Shown here: one piece after another, positions 1,250 to 9,893 of the stretch
Numbering within the stretch: position 1 is the stretch's first letter
How the letters are laid out: each line of letters begins with the position of its first letter
From: Acidobacteriota bacterium
GTDB lineage: Bacteria; Acidobacteriota; Terriglobia; Terriglobales; Acidobacteriaceae
NCBI GenBank assembly: GCA_021804965.1
Contig: JAJZGG010000011.1
Location: 1 to 48,013 of the forward strand
Reading direction: 5' to 3'
DNA: 48,013 nt
Notes under the pieces: generated by a model
Database searches by the model: none
Seen by the model: the letters and a program-made list of their open reading frames with translations, nothing else
What the model was told of the DNA's origin: nothing
Translations under genes and position numbers: made by a program

Positions 1250-1279
1250 TCATCCTGCCAAACCTTATCCTGCCGTCGG
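1250..1279. repeat. two-unit 15-bp tandem duplication at the actB stop codon
   Basis: TCATCCTGCCAAACC (1250-1264) is followed directly by TTATCCTGCCGTCGG (1265-1279). Nine of the first ten bases match. The actB stop codon (TTA on this strand) begins the second unit. One of several such degenerate duplications at gene edges in this window. Confidence 0.4.
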
Positions 1280-4200
1280 AGCGTGTTCCTCGATTGCCGG
1301 CATCAGGGCCGGGTTGGGATTGGTGACCGCTGCCAGATAGAGCGTGCGCGGACGGGTGTTCTGATCGGCCAGCACGCCGTAGCTGCGCTCGTTGTCATGC
1401 AGCTTGCGCACACGGCTGTTCTTGTCGTTCAGGTTGCCGAAGGTGATCGCCGAAGCCGGGCAGGCCTGCTCGCAGGCGGTCACGATCTCGCCATCGCGTA
1501 CAGGGCGGTTTTCCTTGTCGGCGGTGATCTTCGCCTCCTGGATGCGCTGCACGCAGTAGCTGCACTTTTCCATGACGCCGCGCGAACGCACGGTCACATC
1601 CGGGTTGCGCATCAGCTTTAGGCTCTCGGTCTCGTAATCGCTGAAGAGCAGGAAGTTGAAGCGACGCACCTTGTAGGGGCAGTTGTTGGAGCAGTAGCGG
1701 GTGCCCACGCAGCGGTTGTAGACCATGGTGTTCAGCCCCTCGGGCGTGTGTACCGTGGCGCCCACCGGGCAGACCTGTTCGCAGGGGGCATTCTCGCAGT
1801 GCTGGCAGGCCATGGGCTGGAAGTGTGCCCGCGGCGCGGCCAGGTCGCCCTGGAAGTAGGCATCGATGCGCAGCCACTGCATGTTGCGGCCGATGCGTAC
1901 CTCCTGCTTGCCCACGACGGCGATGTTGTTCTCCGCGTAGCAGCTCACAATGCAGGCATTGCAGCCGGTGCAGCTGTTCAGATCGATCGACATGCCCCAG
2001 GCATTGCCGGTCGAGTAATCCCAGTTGGGGAACAGCGTGACTTCGCGCTCGATCTTCGGATGCGTTTCGCCCTCGTTGGCAAAGCCAGGGTTGGCCTTGT
2101 ACTCGCTCAGGGTGGCCTCGCGGATGATGCCGCGGGTCAGCGCCTCATCGGCCTCAAGCGAGTTGTTGCCGTTGCCCTCGCCGCCGAAGAACTTCGAGCG
2201 GTGATCCTGATAGTGGCTCTTGGTGACGGCAAAGCCCCAGCGTCCATCGGCCTTCTTCAGGCTGGCGCCGCTGGCCACGCTCATCGTTGCTGCCGTGCGC
2301 AGCAGACCGGCGTTGTAGCCGGCACCGGAGCCGACGCGACCGGCCGACTCGCGACCATAGCCGAGATAGGCGGTGATGGTGTTCTCCGGCTGGCCGGGCA
2401 GCACCAGTACCGGCGCCTTGACCGTGCGTCCGTTGACGGTGATCTCGACAATATCCTCTTCCGCCAGACCGGAGCGCAGCATCAGCGCCTCGTTCATCAG
2501 TGCGGCATTGTCCCAGCTCAGGCTGGAGACCGGCTTGGGCAGCTCCTGCAGCCAGCCCACGTTGGCAAAGCGGCCGTCATAGATGGTCGGATCGGGGCGG
2601 AACTGCACCTCAATCGCATCCTTGCCTGCCGGGGCCGGGGCGTTGATCGTAGCCACCGTGGCGGTTGCGGACACCGGCAGTGCCGAGCCTTCCACCCAGC
2701 CGGCATGCAGGGCCTTGCGCCAGTTGGCTTCAAAGTCGCCGGATTTCGCCAGCACCGGCTGCCAGGTCTCACGCACCGCCTCGTAGGCGGACTTGGTCGG
2801 CTCGTCCAGCATGGCCTGCACAATCTCATGCGCGGAGTGCGATTTGTAGAGCGGATCGATCAGCGGCTGCACCACGCTGGCCATGCCATCGTAGCTGCGC
2901 GCATCGCTCCAGCTTTCCAGATAATGCGAGGCGGGAATCTGCCAGTCGGTCATGCTGCCGGTCTCATCGGCATGCTTGCCCAGATGCACGGTGACCTTGG
3001 CGCGGCTCATCGCATCCTTGAAATTGAGGTCGGCCGGAGCATCATAGATCGGATTGGCGCCCAGGATCAGCAGCCAGTCCACCTTGCCGGACCAGAGGTC
3101 GTTGACCAGCGACTGAAGCTCGGCCAGCTGCACGGTGGGCATGGGGTTGACGGCATCGGTGAAGCTGACCGTCTTGCCGTAGTTGCCCAGGGCCTCATTG
3201 ATGCGCAGGGCCAGCGACAGCACCGAAGGATGCTGCTGCTCACCGGCCAGTACGACGCACTTGCCAGCATTGGCCTTCAGATCGGCGGCCACGGCCTTCA
3301 GATATTTGGTCTGCTCGTCGGTCCAGGCATAGGACGGAACCGGCGTGGAGACGCCCAGAGCCGCGGCAAGGGCTGCCGTGAAGGCAGGCACCTCGCTGGG
3401 CTTCAGCGCCAGCCGATGCTCGGCCTTCAGTCCGGTGGTCGTGGTCGTGGACTCGACCGTATAGAGCCGGTTCATCGTGGCGCCTTCGGCACCGTTGGCC
3501 AGCTTGCGCCGCTCGCTGTACTCCCGCGTGAGGCGATGGAAGCCCGGGTAGCTGGAGCCGGACAGGAAGTCGGCATCGAGCGAAAGAATGACGTCAGCCC
3601 CGGTCAGCGAGTACTGCACATCCTTGCCGCCCAGCACGGTGCGCACGGCATCGCGGTTCACCGGGTCATACTGCACGAAGCGGGCCTTGGGATAGAGCGC
3701 CTGCGCCTCCTTCCACTGGCGGGCCAGTGTGGGCGAGGTGACGGTGGAGCTGAGAATGGCAATGCCCTGGCCGCCGTTGCCCTTGGATGCAATCAGCTTC
3801 TCGCGCCACTGCATCAGGAAGTCGGTCCATTCGCGGTTGTCGCCGCGGTAGGTCGTCTCCTGCGATCGGTCCGGATCGTACATGTCCAGCAGGGTGCCCT
3901 GGGTGAACGGGTCCGAGGTGCCGCGGTTGTAGGGGTGGTCCGGGTTGCCATCGACCTTGATGGGACGGAAGGCATCCGACTTGACCAGCAGCGGCACGCT
4001 GCCCATGGCAAACGGGTAGGCCGTGGCAAAGTACATCGGCTTGCCCAGGATCAGATCCTCGGGAGCCTTGACGTAGGGGTAGATGGGCTCGTCCGGCTGC
4101 TTGGTGCAGCCAGCCAGGCCGGCCATGGCCATCGAGGCACCCATCAGCTTGAGGAAGCCGCGCCGCGAGACCGGATCGACCCACTCCTGTGCCGCATCCG

Positions 4201-4375
4201 GGAACTCCTTGAGCACGGCGGCTTCAAACTCCGGCGTTGCCGCCAGTTCATCAATCGAGCGCCAGTACTTTTTGCCCTTCACGCCCTGCAAATTGCGCCG
4301 AACCTCGGCCAGTGTCAGCCCTTGTTCTTTCCCTGTTTCCATCGCGCCTGTCCCTGCTTCCGTCTTCGGGGTCAT
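1265..4375 (-). CDS. actB: Alternative Complex III subunit ActB (fused molybdopterin-like and iron-sulfur protein)
   Basis: Large peripheral subunit of Alternative Complex III, 1036 residues. A twin-arginine motif (SRRGFLKLMG) is followed by a lipobox-like LAGC, which suggests Tat export and lipid anchoring. The N-terminal two-thirds resemble a molybdopterin oxidoreductase catalytic domain. The C-terminal third is a ferredoxin-like module with several cysteine clusters (CTGCNACIVSC, CQHCENAPCEQVCP, CVGTRYCSNNCP, CSYC, CEQACP), enough for the family's usual [4Fe-4S] and [3Fe-4S] centres. I chose ATG 4375 because an AGGA ribosome site precedes it; an upstream extension to 4462 would overlap actA. 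The gap from actA is 25 bp, so they are co-transcribed. In this family the molybdopterin-like domain lacks the cofactor (family knowledge). Confidence 0.95.
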   Translation of the reverse strand: MTPKTEAGTGAMETGKEQGLTLAEVRRNLQGVKGKKYWRSIDELAATPEFEAAVLKEFPDAAQEWVDPVSRRGFLKLMGASMAMAGLAGCTKQPDEPIYPYVKAPEDLILGKPMYFATAYPFAMGSVPLLVKSDAFRPIKVDGNPDHPYNRGTSDPFTQGTLLDMYDPDRSQETTYRGDNREWTDFLMQWREKLIASKGNGGQGIAILSSTVTSPTLARQWKEAQALYPKARFVQYDPVNRDAVRTVLGGKDVQYSLTGADVILSLDADFLSGSSYPGFHRLTREYSERRKLANGAEGATMNRLYTVESTTTTTGLKAEHRLALKPSEVPAFTAALAAALGVSTPVPSYAWTDEQTKYLKAVAADLKANAGKCVVLAGEQQHPSVLSLALRINEALGNYGKTVSFTDAVNPMPTVQLAELQSLVNDLWSGKVDWLLILGANPIYDAPADLNFKDAMSRAKVTVHLGKHADETGSMTDWQIPASHYLESWSDARSYDGMASVVQPLIDPLYKSHSAHEIVQAMLDEPTKSAYEAVRETWQPVLAKSGDFEANWRKALHAGWVEGSALPVSATATVATINAPAPAGKDAIEVQFRPDPTIYDGRFANVGWLQELPKPVSSLSWDNAALMNEALMLRSGLAEEDIVEITVNGRTVKAPVLVLPGQPENTITAYLGYGRESAGRVGSGAGYNAGLLRTAATMSVASGASLKKADGRWGFAVTKSHYQDHRSKFFGGEGNGNNSLEADEALTRGIIREATLSEYKANPGFANEGETHPKIEREVTLFPNWDYSTGNAWGMSIDLNSCTGCNACIVSCYAENNIAVVGKQEVRIGRNMQWLRIDAYFQGDLAAPRAHFQPMACQHCENAPCEQVCPVGATVHTPEGLNTMVYNRCVGTRYCSNNCPYKVRRFNFLLFSDYETESLKLMRNPDVTVRSRGVMEKCSYCVQRIQEAKITADKENRPVRDGEIVTACEQACPASAITFGNLNDKNSRVRKLHDNERSYGVLADQNTRPRTLYLAAVTNPNPALMPAIEEHAPTAG

Positions 4376-4400
4376 ATCGTCCTGTTTCCTGCTCGGATCG

Positions 4401-5261
4401 TTACCGGTGGCAAGTCTCGCAGCTCGACAACTGCTGCGGGGGACGAATGTGGTACTGGTCAATCAGAAAATCGCCAAGAGCCTTCTGGCTCGTGAACCGG
4501 GTGTAGGTGAGCGAGGCCGGGATGACGGTGCCACCTGCCGGTGCTGCGCTGGAGCCCGGAGCCGGCGGCATATCCAGAGCCGCTTCCGCCGGTCCGCTGC
4601 CCGTCGGGTCCTGCGTCACGCAACGGACGCTCTGCGCCGTGGGCACGCCAACCTTGGCATCGGTGACCGAGCACCAGACCGGATGATCCTCGCTGGGGGC
4701 CTTCCATGCCATGTTGTAGATCTCGCTGGTCGGGCGCAGATTCTTGCCCGGGTTGCGATGGCAGTTCAGGCACCACTCCATCTGAAGGGTGTTCTGCGCA
4801 TACATCAAAGGCATGAGATCGACGCGTCCATGACAGGAGGCGCAACCGATGCCCTTGTTCACATGCACGGAATGGTTGAAGTAGACGAAGTCGGGCAGAT
4901 CATGCACCTTGATCCACGGAATCGACTCGCCGGTTGCCCAGCTGTGCCGCACCGGCTCGAGAAGGGCGGCATTCGTCCAGATCTGTGCGTGGCAGTTCAT
5001 GCACGTCTTGGTGGGTGGGATGCCCGCGTAGCTCGATTTCTCGACCGACGTGTGGCAGTACTGGCACTGCAGGCCCAGACCCTGTACGTGATGCTTGTGG
5101 CTGAACGGAACCGGCTGGTCCGCCCTCTGTCCCTGCCGCGTCACCCACGGCGAGCGCTGCAACTGGTCCAGCGTCACCCCCAGTGCGATGACCAGAATGC
5201 CTGTGAGTACCAGGCTCATCCGGGCCAGCGCATTGGAGTTGCGATCAAAAATCTGTGCCAT
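4401..5261 (-). CDS. actA: Alternative Complex III pentahaem cytochrome c subunit ActA
   Basis: Membrane-anchored multihaem cytochrome c, first gene of the Alternative Complex III operon, 286 residues. One N-terminal hydrophobic helix (about residues 13-31) anchors it. Five CxxCH haem c motifs are visible: CQYCH, CMNCH, CASCH, CLNCH and, at the extreme C-terminus, CETCH. An Ala/Pro-rich linker separates the fourth and fifth haem motifs. ATG 5261 is preceded by GGGAAAG and places the hydrophobic segment close to the N-terminus; 15 codons of upstream open frame look untranslated. Five haems and the position in front of actB fit ActA. The operon promoter should lie in the noncoding stretch to its right. 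Confidence 0.94.
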   Translation of the reverse strand: MAQIFDRNSNALARMSLVLTGILVIALGVTLDQLQRSPWVTRQGQRADQPVPFSHKHHVQGLGLQCQYCHTSVEKSSYAGIPPTKTCMNCHAQIWTNAALLEPVRHSWATGESIPWIKVHDLPDFVYFNHSVHVNKGIGCASCHGRVDLMPLMYAQNTLQMEWCLNCHRNPGKNLRPTSEIYNMAWKAPSEDHPVWCSVTDAKVGVPTAQSVRCVTQDPTGSGPAEAALDMPPAPGSSAAPAGGTVIPASLTYTRFTSQKALGDFLIDQYHIRPPQQLSSCETCHR

Positions 5262-6000
5262 GAATCTTTCCCTGCTTCCGGTTTTCCCTGACTCGCGTGC
5301 TTGCACACCCGACCAGGGTCATTACTTGAATTCCACCGCCGCTCAACGGCCTTGAAGTTCTGAAGTCTTACTAGGAAGAACGAAATAATCCCCGGGGCCC
5401 CGGCTCTGACATGTGGAAAACCGGTCACCCTACCCGTACCACTATAGCAGCGCGAGGTTTGTCATGAACACAGGTTGGGATGCACGTTTGCGATACAGTG
5501 TTGCCGCATGAAAAGCCGGAATTCCTTATAAGCAGAGGACTGTTTTGGTCGGGGTTTGCGGAGATGGTTCGTGGTCTCCGGGGGCTGTCCCAAAAGATGA
5601 AAAGCTGGAATGGGGCAATCTCTACCGTATCTTGCGCAGGAGCTCAAAAGGGCGCGAGATATTGTGGTTATCGCACCGGAGCTGCAACAGCGTCTTTCAG
5701 AGGGAACGCGCGAAGGGCAGGAAAAGTTCCGCCGCGCTTCGGTTTGTCCCAGATTGCAGAACCGGGCCGGGTTGAGGGCCAAAGCGGGAGGGCGGGAAGG
5801 GGCTATCCGCTGGCGGCAGCGATGGCTGGCAAGCTGATTTGGCCGACTGCCGGGCTCGGTTCGCACTGGGTTCGCGCTGGCTTCGGACAGACCGGAGCCG
5901 GCTGCCGGGACTGGCTGAGCGGCCTGAATGTGGGCCTGGGGAGGGTGGGAAAAGTGGCTTTCCGTGGAATCGAACGGGCTGGTCTGGGCCCAGATATGGC
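5262..6000. other. 739-bp noncoding stretch between actA and the bufferin genes
   Basis: I see no convincing gene here. Long open frames exist on both strands but are low-complexity and resemble no family. The region should hold the act operon promoter (right of 5261) and the 3' end of the bufferin operon. It contains a perfect 12-bp GC palindrome at 5392-5403 and a degenerate 11-bp tandem array at 5858-5890. Confidence 0.6.
5858..5890. repeat. degenerate 11-bp tandem array, three units
   Basis: Units are GGTTCGCACTG (5858-5868), GGTTCGCGCTG (5869-5879) and the more diverged GCTTCGGACAG (5880-5890). It lies about 110 bp beyond the bufC stop codon in noncoding DNA. Confidence 0.4.
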
Positions 6001-6801
6001 TCAGGCGGGGCTTGCATCGGGTGGAGAGCAAAGCCAACCGAATTGTGTAGCCAGGGCGAGCGCGGCGTGGATGGCATCGGCGGTGGATTCCGGTGAGCTG
6101 CCGCGCGGTGCCGCGGCGCAGGCCACGGGCAGGGCCTGGCCGAGCGGCAGCCCGCGGCCCAGCGACTGGAGCAGGGTGAAGGCGATGCGGTCCAGGCGGC
6201 GGTAGTAGACCAGATCGTCGGCGCGATGGACGGCCAGCCAGACGCGTTCCCGGCGCAGGCGCGGCAGCGGCTGGGTGCGGCCATCGCGATGCACGGCCGG
6301 CAGCAGCTCATCGACGCTGGAGGAGAGTGCAAGCAGCCGCAGGTGGGGCTGGAGGCAGAAGCGGGAGTCGGCGTGGAAGTCGGCAACGATGGGTGGCAGT
6401 GCGGCGACGTCGTAAGCCTCGACGTAGGCCCATTCCAGCCGGGCGGCATCGAGCGCGGCGCGCCAGCGTCGGCCGGCCTGTTCGCGATGCTGTTCCAGCC
6501 AGGCGGGCAGATGCTGGCCGAGGTCGCGCAGGGTCCAGGAGTGCGAGGGATGGTCGATGAGATAGGCGTCGAGCAGGGCGGCGAAGCGGCGGCGACCGAC
6601 GACGGCGCGCAGGGCGGGAAAATCCTCGGCCAGGGACTGGCGCAGCCGGGCCCAGTAGGAGCGGTGATAGATGCCGAGCCGCTCGCGTGCGCTGAGGCGG
6701 CGGCCGGGGCGCAGGTAGGCAGCGGCTGCGGAGTTGTCCTCCGGCGCGGTGGGCTGGCGCAGCTCGGCCAGCATGGTGCGTTGCAGCTCAAGCAGCTGCA
6801 T
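6001..6801 (-). CDS. bufC: BufC-like maturation partner (DUF2063, HvfC/BufC family)
   Basis: Partner protein of a DUF692-type MNIO enzyme, 266 residues. The N-terminus (MQLLELQRTMLAEL..., then RLGIYHRSYWARLRQSLAEDFPAL) matches the DUF2063 domain that accompanies DUF692 enzymes. Such partners are thought to recruit the precursor peptide to the enzyme. ATG 6801 lies inside the 3' end of bufB (14-bp overlap), so the two are translationally coupled; longer open frame upstream is the shadow of bufB. Order bufA-bufB-bufC on one strand is the canonical arrangement. DUF2063 was once annotated as a putative DNA-binding domain, but I see no helix-turn-helix evidence here. Confidence 0.85.
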   Translation of the reverse strand: MQLLELQRTMLAELRQPTAPEDNSAAAAYLRPGRRLSARERLGIYHRSYWARLRQSLAEDFPALRAVVGRRRFAALLDAYLIDHPSHSWTLRDLGQHLPAWLEQHREQAGRRWRAALDAARLEWAYVEAYDVAALPPIVADFHADSRFCLQPHLRLLALSSSVDELLPAVHRDGRTQPLPRLRRERVWLAVHRADDLVYYRRLDRIAFTLLQSLGRGLPLGQALPVACAAAPRGSSPESTADAIHAALALATQFGWLCSPPDASPA

Positions 6802-7687
6802 GGCGGCTCTCCGGTGCGGCGACGGGCGACTGCGCTGCAGCCATGGGCGACTGCACTGCAGCGGCCAGCCAGCGGTTGGCTTTGAGCGCCTCCGTGTGGA
6901 GCTCGTCGAAGGGCGGAATGCGGTCATCCCATTCGAGCAGGGTGGCCGTGTGGCCCACGCGTTCGATGGCGCGGGCGTAGAGCTTCCAGACCGGATCGAG
7001 CACGGGATGGTCGTGGGTGTCGAGGCGGTATTTTTCAAAGCGGGAGTGGCCGGCGATGTGGATCTGGCCGACGCGCGCCGGATCGATCGCGTTGACGTAG
7101 GTCATCGGATCGAAGTCGTGATTCCAGGAGGAGACGTAGATGTTGTTCACGTCGAGCAGAATGCCGCAGTCGGCGCGTTCGACCACCTCGTTGAGGAACT
7201 CCCACTCGGTCATCTCGGAGTCGTGAAACTCGGCGTAGCTGCTGACGTTTTCGACGAGGATGGGCAGCTCCAGCTCCTGCTGCGCGTGGCGGATCTGCTG
7301 GGCGGTGCGTTCGACGGCCTCCCAGGTGTAGGGCAGCGGGAGCAGGTCATGGGAGTAGGTGCCGTCGACGCTGCCCCAGCAGAGATGATCGGAGACCCAG
7401 GGCGTGCCGGTGCGGCGGGTGAGCGCCTTCAGGCGGCGCAGATGGTCGCCATTGAGCCGCTGGGCAGAGCCGAAGTAGAGCGAGACGCCGTGCTGGACGA
7501 CGCGGTACTGCTCGAGGATGCGATCGAGCGTGGCCAGCGCGTTGCCGCCATCGACCATGTAGTTCTCGGAGATGATTTCAAACCAGTCGACGACCGGGCG
7601 GCGGGCGAGGATTTCGTCGTAGTGCGGGATGCGCAGGCCGACGCCGACACCGTACTGGGTGAATCCGTTGAAGCGATTGGCGGGCAT
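6788..7687 (-). CDS. bufB: BufB-like multinuclear non-haem iron oxidase (DUF692, MNIO)
   Basis: Peptide-modifying enzyme of the DUF692 (MNIO) family, 299 residues. In described bufferin systems this TIM-barrel iron enzyme converts precursor cysteines into thiooxazole-type heterocycles that bind copper. Likely metal-ligand segments are visible: VQHGVSLYFGS, SDHLCW, ILVENVSSY, LDVNNIYVSSWNH, IHIAGHSR and DTHDHPV. ATG 7687 begins MPANRFNGFTQYGVGVGLR, the usual N-terminus; its ribosome site is weak, but upstream codons are non-homologous. The last about 25 residues are an Ala/Gln/Ser/Pro tail made by an in-frame 21-bp duplication (6824-6865). It follows bufA by 124 bp. Product chemistry is inferred from the family. 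Confidence 0.9.
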   Translation of the reverse strand: MPANRFNGFTQYGVGVGLRIPHYDEILARRPVVDWFEIISENYMVDGGNALATLDRILEQYRVVQHGVSLYFGSAQRLNGDHLRRLKALTRRTGTPWVSDHLCWGSVDGTYSHDLLPLPYTWEAVERTAQQIRHAQQELELPILVENVSSYAEFHDSEMTEWEFLNEVVERADCGILLDVNNIYVSSWNHDFDPMTYVNAIDPARVGQIHIAGHSRFEKYRLDTHDHPVLDPVWKLYARAIERVGHTATLLEWDDRIPPFDELHTEALKANRWLAAAVQSPMAAAQSPVAAPESRHAAA

Positions 7688-7811
7688 GGGAGTTCCAGAT
7701 CGAAAGCGGGTTTGAAAAGTGGGTTCCGGGGGATGGCCGCCGGGCACCCGCGATGGCCGGGGAGGGCCAGCGGGTGCCGGGCAGCCGGGGGAGCAAACGG
7801 TCGTGGGAAGG

Positions 7812-8093
7812 TTACTTGCCCATCGGCTTGGAGCCGTCGGTGGCGCAGTCGCCCTGACCCTTGCAGGAGTTCTTGCCGGGGTGCTTGCCGCCGCCCTGGC
7901 CCTTGCAGTCGTTCTGTCCCTTGCAGGCGTGCTTGGGCAGCGGCTTGGCGCCGAAGTCGGCCATGGCCATGCCGGAGACGCCGATCTGGGTGGCGTGCGA
8001 GGGGGTCTGTGCATTCAGGCGGGCGCTGGTGCCGCCCATGAGTCCGGCCAGAGCGGCGGAGAGTGCGAGTGCGTTCAGAGTCTTTGCGTTCAT
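7812..8093 (-). CDS. bufA: bufferin-type metallophore precursor peptide (BufA)
   Basis: Small exported precursor, 93 residues. The N-terminus (MNAKTLNALALSAALAGLMGG) looks like a Sec signal peptide ending near ARLNAQ. The mature part carries four cysteines (57, 63, 77, 83) in two Cys-x5-Cys motifs, CKGQNDC and CKGQGDC, separated by a Gly/Lys-rich linker. Such repeated CKGQ cysteine motifs are typical of BufA2-type bufferins, whose cysteines are modified by the DUF692 enzyme encoded next door and which bind copper in the periplasm. AAGGAA precedes ATG 8093. Transcription probably starts about 115 bp upstream at the sigma-factor promoter at 8216-8245. The substrate role is strongly suggested by context; metal specificity is inferred. 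Confidence 0.85.
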   Translation of the reverse strand: MNAKTLNALALSAALAGLMGGTSARLNAQTPSHATQIGVSGMAMADFGAKPLPKHACKGQNDCKGQGGGKHPGKNSCKGQGDCATDGSKPMGK

Positions 8094-8215
8094 GGTGGAG
8101 TTCCTTTCCGGGTTGGGCCGGCGGCGCGTTGGCCAATGCCGGGCGGTGAAGAGGTTGGCGCAATGGATTGCGCGGGCTGCAGGCGTCGCGGCTTGCGAAG
8201 CTCCTGTGCTGCCCC

Positions 8216-8245
8216 TCTGAGTGAGTCGCGGGCGGGAAGGTTACA
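8216..8245 (-). promoter_or_regulatory. putative ECF-sigma promoter of the bufABC operon
   Basis: On the minus strand a -35 element TGTAACC (8245-8239) and a -10 element CTCAGA (8221-8216) are separated by 17 bp. The same two hexamer/heptamer elements with the same spacing occur on the opposite strand at 8326-8355, in front of the operon encoding an ECF sigma factor. Two identical bipartite elements facing away from each other in one intergenic region are unlikely by chance and fit an autoregulated ECF promoter pair. Confidence 0.7.
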
Positions 8246-8325
8246 TCGACGCGCATAAAAAAATGCCGAAGCGGTTGCGATGCGGATGGGCAGTGGCGCG
8301 TGAGCTGCGATTTGTGCGCGGAGGC

Positions 8326-8355
8326 TGTAACCTTTTGCGCCGGGCAAGACTCAGA
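8326..8355 (+). promoter_or_regulatory. putative ECF-sigma promoter of the doxX-sigma-anti-sigma operon
   Basis: TGTAACC (8326-8332), a 17-bp spacer and CTCAGA (8350-8355), identical in elements and spacing to the divergent promoter at 8216-8245. It lies about 160 bp upstream of the doxX start and suggests that the sigma factor encoded at 9004-9642 activates its own operon. Confidence 0.7.
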
Positions 8356-8513
8356 ACGGCAAGGCTCACAGGACTGCTGCGCGACAGAAAGCGGAAGTGG
8401 CGCCGGGCAAAGGCTGGAGTGCCACGCCGCGCATGCGGACAGCAGAAACGGAAATGCCGTCACGGACCGCGGATACAGACCGCAGACACGGACAGGGTTT
8501 TGAGGAGAGATTC

Positions 8514-9023
8514 ATGAAGGCACTACTTGCGTTGTATCGTCGCCTGCTTGCGGCACTGGATGGCATGCGTTCGCCGATGTTGTTGTTCGTGCGCCTCTAC
8601 TGGGGATGGCAGTTTGCCCAGACGGGCTGGGGCAAGCTGCATCATCTGGAGCGGATCACGGGCTTCTTTGCCTCGCTGGGAATTCCCTTCCCGGCATTGA
8701 ATGCGCACTTCGTTTCTGTGCTGGAGTTTTTCGGCGGACTGTTGTGGATTCTGGGTCTGGCGACGCGGCCGATCTCGCTGCTGCTGGCCGGGAATATGTT
8801 TGTGGCCTACTGGACGGCGGATCGTCCGGCACTGCTTTCCTTCTTCAAGGATCCGGGTACGTTTTATGTGGCCGATCCGTACACGTTTCTGTTTGCGGCG
8901 CTGCTGCTGCTGTTCTTCGGACCGGGACGCTTTGCGGTTGATACACTGCTGGCCAGGGTGATTGCACTCCGCTGCAAGGAAAGCGATTCGCAGACTGCCA
9001 GCCATGAGCGTCGAAGCAGATAA
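8514..9023 (+). CDS. DoxX family membrane protein of the bufferin cluster
   Basis: Inner-membrane protein of 169 residues with about four hydrophobic helices (for example PMLLFVRLYWGWQF and LFAALLLLFFG) and the DoxX-family motif FAQTGWGKLHHLERITGFFASLGIP. DoxX proteins are frequent fourth members of bufferin/DUF692 clusters (BufD); they may serve in redox or quinone chemistry, but the precise role is not settled. GAGGAG precedes ATG 8514. It is the first gene of a plus-strand operon: its last 20 bp overlap the sigma-factor gene. The putative ECF promoter at 8326-8355 would drive it together with its own regulators. Confidence 0.85.
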   Translation: MKALLALYRRLLAALDGMRSPMLLFVRLYWGWQFAQTGWGKLHHLERITGFFASLGIPFPALNAHFVSVLEFFGGLLWILGLATRPISLLLAGNMFVAYWTADRPALLSFFKDPGTFYVADPYTFLFAALLLLFFGPGRFAVDTLLARVIALRCKESDSQTASHERRSR

Positions 9024-9642
9024 CCGGACGGAACAGGAACTGATTGCTGCCATACTGGGCGGCCAGAAGCACCTGTATCATGCTCTGGTTCGTCCGGTTG
9101 AGAAGAAAATATTTATGGTGGTTCTGGCCTATGTGCACAATCCGTCGGATGCCGAGGATATCGTTCAGGAGGCGTTTCTGGACGGGTATCGGCATCTGGC
9201 CACCTTCCGCGGTGAGGCGCGGTTCAGCACGTGGATCACGACGATTGCGCTGAACAAGGCGCGTGCCCGGATGCGGCGGAGTTCGGCGCATGCGGAGGTG
9301 TCGCTGGACGATGCCGGCGATGAGGATCGCGCGCCGGCCGTGTCTCCGGCGCTGCTGCGGGACTGGCGCGAGATTCCCTCCGAGGCGCTGGAGCGCAACG
9401 AGGTGCGGACGCTGATTCGCCAGGCGGTGAGCGAGCTGCCGGAGAGCTTTCGGACGGTGTTTGTGCTGCGCGAGCTGGAAGAGCTTTCCGGCGAAGAGAC
9501 GGCGGCAGCGCTGGGCATCTCACTGGCGCTGGTGAAGGTGCGCCTGCACCGGGCGCGCATCCAGCTGCAGAAATCCCTGGCACCGGCGCTTCGTTCAGCC
9601 ACCGAGCCGCATCGAAAGAAAAGGTGGCCGTCATGGAGCTGA
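9004..9642 (+). CDS. ECF-family RNA polymerase sigma factor
   Basis: Extracytoplasmic-function sigma-70 factor, 212 residues. Region 2 is seen at about residues 30-95 (NPSDAEDIVQEAFLDGYRHL, then FRGEARFSTWITTIALNKAR). Region 4 is at about 140-195 (ELPESFRTVFVLRELEELSG, then LGISLALVKVRLHRARIQLQ). The linker between them is acidic. ATG 9004 overlaps the doxX end by 20 bp, which implies coupling; no strong ribosome site is visible. The next gene overlaps it by 10 bp and encodes a zinc-binding anti-sigma. The divergent TGTAACC-N17-CTCAGA elements upstream are the obvious candidates for its target promoters. The inducing signal cannot be read from sequence; copper or thiol stress is plausible from the bufferin link. 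Confidence 0.93.
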   Translation: MSVEADNRTEQELIAAILGGQKHLYHALVRPVEKKIFMVVLAYVHNPSDAEDIVQEAFLDGYRHLATFRGEARFSTWITTIALNKARARMRRSSAHAEVSLDDAGDEDRAPAVSPALLRDWREIPSEALERNEVRTLIRQAVSELPESFRTVFVLRELEELSGEETAAALGISLALVKVRLHRARIQLQKSLAPALRSATEPHRKKRWPSWS

Positions 9643-9893
9643 ACTGCAGGCACGTGTGGGAGTTTCTCTCCGGCTATCTGGACGACACGCTGGATGCGGC
9701 GGTGCGCGAGGATGTGGAGCGCCACCTGGCCCACTGCGAGGTCTGCTCGGCGATTCTGGACTCGACGCGCAACATCCTGGTGCTGACCGCCGATGACCGC
9801 GTCTTCGAGCTGCCGGTGGGCTTCAGTGATCGGCTGCATGCGCGGCTGAACGAGCTGATCGGCGAGGATCCGACCTCGCCGGAAAAGACCTGA
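9633..9893 (+). CDS. zinc-binding anti-sigma factor (ZAS type, soluble)
   Basis: Small predicted anti-sigma factor of 86 residues. The zinc-finger pattern His-x3-Cys-x2-Cys (HLAHCEVC) sits at about residues 31-38, preceded by CRHVWEFLSGYLDDTLD, typical of the N-terminal anti-sigma domain. No transmembrane segment follows, so it should act in the cytoplasm, possibly sensing thiol oxidation or metal through its zinc site. I prefer ATG 9633; a GTG at 9624 would add three residues. It overlaps the sigma gene by 10 bp and closes the operon. Confidence 0.88.
   Translation: MELNCRHVWEFLSGYLDDTLDAAVREDVERHLAHCEVCSAILDSTRNILVLTADDRVFELPVGFSDRLHARLNELIGEDPTSPEKT

Follow-up and report, generated by a model that had tools for sequence, protein, structure and literature searches.

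A bufferin-type gene cluster linked to its own ECF sigma factor and a predicted zinc-type anti-sigma factor in Acidobacteriota

Introduction

Several described circuits couple an extracytoplasmic function (ECF) sigma factor to DUF692, DUF2063 or DoxX-type genes. Here we characterize a locus of this kind at positions 6001-9893 of a 48,013-nucleotide stretch of DNA from an Acidobacteriota bacterium (assembly GCA_021804965.1, contig JAJZGG010000011.1; the whole stretch is called the window below), in which genes for a precursor peptide (bufA), an MNIO enzyme (bufB) and a DUF2063 protein (bufC) are divergent from doxX, an ECF sigma gene and a gene for a candidate zinc-type anti-sigma factor. Together, these genes probably make up a self-standing regulon for stress, built around a peptide that is secreted, modified and probably copper-binding.

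The published accounts compared here are drawn from excerpts of the papers cited. In Sinorhizobium meliloti (rpoE7-ecfR7 / SMb20530-20527, ECF16), sigma and anti-sigma genes are divergent from precursor, DUF692, DUF2063 and DoxX genes, as in the window, and the DUF692/DUF2063 operon and the RpoE7 locus have TGTAAC promoters on both sides with apparent autoregulation (PMC6180224). The sequence of that locus encodes a DUF2282 precursor, MNIO, DUF2063, DoxX, an ECF sigma factor and an NrsF anti-sigma factor (181.4 bits). Its sigma factor is only 25% identical to the window sigma over 181 amino acids, its DUF2282 (Buf1) precursor has no significant match to the window BufA, its anti-sigma factor is NrsF whereas that of the window is zinc-type, and its -10 element, CGAAT, is also different. 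Caulobacter SigF controls DUF2282-DUF692-DUF2063-DoxX genes via GTAACC-N16-CGAA (PMC3511200); SigF-NrsF resembles the window in placing an ECF sigma factor on DUF692-DUF2063-DoxX genes through a GTAACC -35 element and differs in its six-helix NrsF anti-sigma factor and its CGAA -10.

Two further systems come closer in their anti-sigma factor. The RpoE-MseR operon of Neisseria meningitidis (NMB2140-2145) combines a zinc-type anti-sigma (ZAS) factor and a sigma factor with a DoxX-like gene in one autoregulated operon; unlike the window, it is a single co-directional operon and has MsrA/MsrB as a further target (PMC2893595). Its genes NMB2141-2143 are termed hypothetical in the excerpt of that paper, so that our comparison leaves the precursor type aside. 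In Haemophilus influenzae, RpoE2 is paired with HrsE, a small cytoplasmic anti-sigma factor akin to those of Neisseria and Streptomyces, and a DoxX-UPF0276-DUF2063 cluster is regulated; in contrast to the window, this cluster lies away from rpoE2, whose product has further targets in msrAB and in a transporter gene adjoining rpoE2 (PMC7907618). On the peptide side, Buf2 (BufA2) clusters share with the window a CKG-rich precursor, the MNIO enzyme BufB, the DUF2063 protein BufC and DoxX. The excerpted survey of these clusters gives them no sigma or anti-sigma gene and assigns their precursors 6 or 12 cysteines (PMC12452194), whereas the window has both regulators and a precursor with four.

The S. 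meliloti, Caulobacter, Neisseria and H. influenzae precedents mean that the type of circuit is already known. The divergent layout, which an earlier sequence-only reading had stressed, is likewise found in S. meliloti. What is new here is a Buf2-type precursor combined with a zinc-type anti-sigma factor and a sigma clade of its own, with a different -10 element. Among the literature matches listed, mostly without subscription papers, we found no description of an Acidobacteriota locus that joins Buf2, sigma and zinc anti-sigma genes; the main text of a Granulicella trace-element proteome paper contains neither 'DUF692' nor 'DoxX'.

Results

Two divergent operons with near-identical promoter-like dyads

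The locus has the following features.

6001 to 6801, minus strand: bufC, DUF2063 partner protein, 266 amino acids (PF09836, 73.4 bits; cut-off 27.2)
6788 to 7687, minus strand: bufB, MNIO peptide-modifying enzyme, 299 amino acids (NF050167, MNIO_BufB, 352.6 bits; cut-off 310)
7812 to 8093, minus strand: bufA, precursor peptide, 93 amino acids, with a signal-peptide-like start and a four-Cys core with CKG motifs (alignment with 15 relatives; NF050166, 21.8 bits, below cut-off)
8218 to 8245, minus strand: promoter-like dyad TGTAACC-N15-CACTCA, upstream of bufA
8326 to 8353, plus strand: promoter-like dyad TGTAACC-N15-GACTCA, upstream of doxX
8514 to 9023, plus strand: doxX, membrane protein, 169 amino acids (PF07681, 71.2 bits; cut-off 23.6)
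9004 to 9642, plus strand: ECF sigma factor, 212 amino acids, of the buf-associated clade (Sigma70_r2 and r4_2 over the Pfam cut-off; TIGR02937, 95.3 bits; cut-off 42.9)
9633 to 9893, plus strand: candidate soluble ZAS-type anti-sigma factor, 86 amino acids, with Cys5-His31-Cys35-Cys38 (zf-HC2, 37.8 bits; cut-off 22.2)

All six genes are present and intact, and the content and orientation proposed by the sequence-only reading hold: bufA-bufB-bufC (6001-8093, minus strand) and doxX-sigma-anti-sigma (8514-9893, plus strand) diverge across 420 bp. The overlap of the latter three genes in one operon, also proposed there, amounts to 20 bp between doxX and sigma and 10 bp between sigma and anti-sigma; bufB and bufC overlap by 14 bp. 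The order bufA-bufB-bufC with MNIO and DUF2063 proteins is that of Buf2 (BufA2) clusters, and the recurrence of the gene set in relatives argues that the locus is not a chance assembly. Genes, overlaps, the conserved dyad, the zinc-ligand pattern and the buf-associated sigma clade can all be read directly in the DNA.

The pattern TGTAACC-N14-16-SACTCA has exactly two matches in the window, one upstream of each operon, and none in 100 shuffles. This pattern had been picked after sight of the window sites, so the commonest upstream 6-mer was then left for the data to choose. In 250-bp regions from the window and its relatives, TGTAAC was the commonest 6-mer both upstream of bufA (12/15) and upstream of the sigma operon (9/12), against a shuffle mean of 0.29 each and maxima of 3 (bufA) and 2 (sigma operon) in 300 shuffles; because some upstream sequences are akin (window/L017 and L029/L030 are near copies), the shuffles overstate independence.

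Among the BufB loci described below that have at least 200 bp upstream, sense-strand TGTAAC precedes bufA in 18 of 26 Acidobacteriota loci with a linked sigma gene and in none of 19 Verrucomicrobiota loci, and the comparison of linked with unlinked Acidobacteriota gives Fisher p = 0.015. On the antisense strand the counts are 3 (linked), 1 (unlinked Acidobacteriota) and 1 (Verrucomicrobiota). With a stricter dyad, the 15 genomes scanned yielded 17 sites, of which 11 belong to buf or sigma loci; the reversed control yielded 2, both in genome G058. Since the stricter dyad was built from the buf and sigma loci themselves, its informative part is how few other sites there are. In the nine loci ordered bufABC-doxX-sigma-anti-sigma, the 350 bp ahead of the internal doxX contain no TGTAAC.

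Two relatives carry the same dyads in other settings. In G013 the operons are split by about 12.6 kb (doxX-sigma-anti-sigma at roughly C14:95.0-96.3 kb, bufABC at roughly C14:108.9-111.2 kb), with a dyad before each. In G012 the operon halves are on separate contigs that share an identical 127-bp end, and both dyads are present; the contig overlap is consistent with a divergent layout. Taken together, the shared promoter, its conservation and the G013 split provide strong circumstantial evidence that both operons are co-regulated.

A wide regulon is unsupported: TGTAACC-N14-16-SACTC has 4 matches in the genome of the window, two at the buf locus and two inside open frames, versus 2 for the reversed control.

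Linkage, not orientation, is conserved

Gene order in relatives, which the sequence-only reading had proposed to compare, was scanned in the nearest 80 of 579 BufB loci (58 Acidobacteriota and 22 Verrucomicrobiota by record title), so the fractions are not population frequencies. With a linked sigma defined by more than 150 bits on our own sigma profile plus an anti-sigma gene, 26 of the 80 loci are linked, all in Acidobacteriota; L111, cut by a contig end, would be the 27th. Three of the loci (L118, L126 and L139) are the same as those of G005, G011 and G002 and count once. The orders are bufABC-doxX-sigma-anti-sigma (9 loci), sigma-anti-sigma-bufABC-doxX (7, and 2 more on short contigs that carry no doxX), doxX-sigma-anti-sigma divergent from bufABC (5), doxX-sigma-anti-sigma-bufABC (2) and sigma-anti-sigma divergent from bufABC-doxX (1), which makes five orders once doxX genes cut off by contig ends are taken into account. 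Loci of this kind occur in named isolates of Granulicella, Edaphobacter and Bryocella, and the divergent layout is found, among others, in Bryocella elongata and a Granulicella strain. What is conserved across these orders is therefore the linkage; divergence is only one arrangement among several and is rejected as a conserved feature.

Presence or absence of the sigma gene at E <= 1e-30 was uninformative, as 55 of 61 genomes match. In the sigma tree, 31 of 33 buf-associated sigmas fall within one 35-row clade (support 99/99), where the 33 labelled rows take in the G013 sigma (12.6 kb away) and the G012 sigma (on the overlapping contig). The other rows of the clade are three orphans and one paralog. 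They include G009, which has a TGTAACC...ACTCC site behind its anti-sigma gene, shortly before the contig stops, and G010, which has a motif-bearing bufABC elsewhere.

In three Verrucomicrobiota loci (L104, L107 and L124), a gene for an ECF sigma factor, with regions 2 and 4 recognised by Pfam, lies upstream of bufA, near a six-Cys Buf2-type cluster. On the Acidobacteriota profile these sigmas reach no more than 50-77 bits, and each is followed by a candidate anti-sigma frame that has no clear Pfam family; they too depart from the survey's statement on sigma-free Buf2 clusters.

A Buf2-like precursor with four cysteines

BufA begins with a hydrophobic, signal-peptide-like stretch (best 15-residue hydropathy 1.65, starting at residue 6; a call made from the hydropathy profile), and a Cys-rich core follows. 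It has no Pfam match and only weakly matches the NCBIfam BufA2 model, at 21.8 bits against a cut-off of 60. The model is nonetheless matched at E <= 0.01 by 16/16 aligned BufA members, and all four other members for which scores were taken also stay under 60 bits (35.2, 28.3, 18.7 and 20.3), two of them with six cysteines. Most aligned relatives carry six cysteines in two CKGxNxCKGxGGC units; in the alignment, two of these six, namely the final Cys of unit one and the initial Cys of unit two, are missing from the window BufA and its closest kin. The window peptide thus has four cysteines, three of them before Lys, and is a variant in view of the 6 or 12 given for Buf2. From its sequence we class it as a Buf2-like precursor with four cysteines, which keeps the bufferin assignment of the sequence-only reading and corrects its plain BufA. 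A Buf1 (DUF2282) identity was ruled out by the lack of a Pfam match and by the alignment of the core with CKG-type relatives. At L142 and L110, BufA open frames carry a single three-Cys CKG unit, which suggests that six-Cys Buf2 peptides are a tandem pair of three-Cys units.

BufB is above the NCBIfam equivalog cut-off, belongs to the Pfam family MbnB_TglH_ChrH (356.6 bits) and has solved structural relatives 3bww, 8hci and 7dz9. Its Asp254-Asp255 pair lies within LEWDD (residues 251-255); among 15 aligned BufB proteins D254 is invariant and D255 is conserved in at least 90%. An Asp following the MNIO catalytic Asp has been linked to Cys-Lys substrates (PMC13097082). The BufB pair would fit a CKG substrate, with its position equated to that rule through the common Asp pair and not by alignment.

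Four-Cys BufA is counted at 9 of the 80 loci. Together with doxX beside sigma, it is found in the window, G012, G013, G010 (C3 copy), L068, L070, L077, L078, L081, L092 and L094. In the sigma tree, from which L078 is absent, these loci group in a single sub-clade (11 rows, 95/86), together with the G030 orphan; the combination looks like a single derived lineage. At L069 the stretch seen has a four-Cys BufA and lacks a linked sigma; at L084 the four cysteines of BufA follow a different pattern, and doxX comes behind bufC. G010 carries two bufABC sets, one six-Cys and one four-Cys (G010:C2:428187-429023, L028; G010:C3, L021), and two sigmas of the buf-associated clade.

A predicted cytoplasmic zinc-thiol anti-sigma factor

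The highest 19-residue hydropathy mean of the anti-sigma candidate is 1.02, which indicates no membrane helix; with the zf-HC2 match this bears out the soluble zinc-finger type proposed by the sequence-only reading. Cys5, His31, Cys35 and Cys38 are invariant in 10/10 aligned sequences. The Cys-x25-His-x3-Cys-x2-Cys arrangement, the absence of a membrane helix and the adjoining sigma gene place the protein with ZAS factors of the RsrA/MseR type, with zinc binding and sigma inhibition predicted. The ligand spacing equals that of the zinc ligands in meningococcal MseR (Cys4-His30-Cys34-Cys37) and in RsrA (Cys11-His37-Cys41-Cys44) (PMC2893595). The protein scores 27.9 bits on the RsrA equivalog TIGR03988, below the cut-off of 62.5 (two relatives, 35.9 and 30.7). 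Its AlphaFold model is weak (mean pLDDT 68.1) and a fold search with it gave no match at E <= 0.001; a profile search of solved structures gave weak matches, the best being RsiW (E 0.1). NrsF-type control was ruled out, as NrsF (PF06532) was found in 0/15 genomes with a positive Caulobacter control.

Neighbouring genes

Adjoining bufC on the minus strand (window 1265-5306) are genes for a multihaem cytochrome c and for a protein of 1065 amino acids that has 4Fe-4S domains and shows a weak molybdopterin-binding match; together, we take them to resemble alternative complex III subunits. The multihaem cytochrome c gene adjoins bufC in G012 and G013 too.

Discussion

The locus looks like a dedicated, self-regulated regulon. 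The self-containment put forward by the sequence-only reading stands in its regulatory part, namely an own sigma and anti-sigma pair, a shared conserved promoter and the circumstantial co-regulation underlined by G013; the divergent layout drops out as a distinctive feature. Several points weigh against this interpretation. The support for a regulon is drawn from sequence comparison. TGTAAC also precedes bufA in 10 of 30 Acidobacteriota loci not counted as linked, among which L111 is really linked and the L129 site is not dyad-like. Conversely, 8 of the 26 linked loci lack an exact TGTAAC; four of these have TGTTACC and one TGTGACC (variants noted post hoc), and three (L084, L089 and L113) have nothing dyad-like. 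The linked sigmas of L020 and L084 fall outside the 35-row clade, and G030 has a clade sigma with doxX and no BufB found in a genome that is 81% complete. Neither rpoE7 of S. meliloti nor its target showed a response to H2O2, Cd or chromate (PMC6180224), and none of the oxidants tried elicited one from the zinc-type MseR (PMC2893595). Finally, a paralogous sigma in the same genome as a buf-associated one adjoins TGTAACC sites, so the -35 box is not exclusive.

This last point would also suit mere neighbourhood, with the sigma factor serving other targets and the bufABC promoter read by a different one. We regard that as very improbable, given that the linkage outlasts several gene orders, the dyad is kept where the operons are split in G013, 31 of the 35 sigma-clade rows are buf-associated and few other dyad sites exist. 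The paralogous sigma at G000:C23:24264-25024 (L155, L160), which comes with a related anti-sigma, has one TGTAACC site and a second, divergent one before a small membrane-protein-like frame, and a similar site lies beside a paralogous sigma in G013; cross-talk between paralogous and buf sigmas is possible.

Drawing on what is known of these families for sigma-promoter pairing, inhibition, signal, modification, export and metal, we propose that a dedicated regulon would work as follows. As long as the cell is unstressed, the ECF sigma factor would be kept inactive by the small cytoplasmic zinc protein (Cys5-His31-Cys35-Cys38). A thiol-reactive stress, with surplus Cu(I) or an oxidant as its likeliest cause, would upset the zinc site and free the sigma factor, which would read the near-identical TGTAACC...ACTCA promoters in both directions. 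One promoter would amplify doxX-sigma-anti-sigma, and the other would yield BufA, BufB and BufC. BufB and BufC would then modify the cysteines of the BufA CKG motifs, and BufA, exported by Sec, would bind metal outside the cytoplasm.

As the signal to which the zinc site reacts, we favour a thiophilic metal or thiol oxidation, with moderate confidence because MseR and RpoE7 were unresponsive to the agents tried. The regulon might be real and yet serve mainly in defence against thiol oxidants, with the zinc anti-sigma factor as a redox switch, DoxX in thiol repair and BufA as one effector. The RsrA-like ligand spacing (PMC2893595), the study under hypochlorite of H. influenzae RpoE2/HrsE with its DoxX-UPF0276-DUF2063 target cluster (PMC7907618) and the place of doxX within the sigma operon in the four-Cys lineage speak for this; we still find it unlikely, as bufferins reportedly sequester copper and help copper-stressed cells to grow, and the silence of MseR under oxidants counts here too. 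Alternatively, Cu, Cd, Hg or Au might displace the zinc directly instead of oxidising the site, so that the system would sense a thiophilic metal in the cytoplasm. A soluble protein with an invariant Cys3-His site (10/10) and a metallophore-type product would agree with direct displacement. The site is predicted from sequence, and the zinc-type anti-sigma factors in the literature excerpts seen are redox or singlet-oxygen sensors (PMC2893595, PMC6432622); displacement is thus a possibility of some substance that we do not expect to prevail.

Returning to the dedicated, self-regulated regulon, we tentatively extend it to a bufferin regulon that evolved in Acidobacteriota, with a dedicated ECF sigma clade, a cytoplasmic zinc-thiol sensor and Buf2-type peptides. 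In this extension, which may well not hold, one sub-lineage would have cut the six-Cys peptide to four and placed doxX under the sigma factor's own promoter, giving a distinct metallophore with another metal stoichiometry or preference. In these Acidobacteriota loci, genes for a sigma factor and a soluble zinc-finger anti-sigma factor are linked to Buf2-type clusters. If the model is true, sensing would be cytoplasmic, in contrast to that by a membrane-bound NrsF, and the same kind of circuit would have arisen more than once, each time out of other families of sigma and anti-sigma factors.

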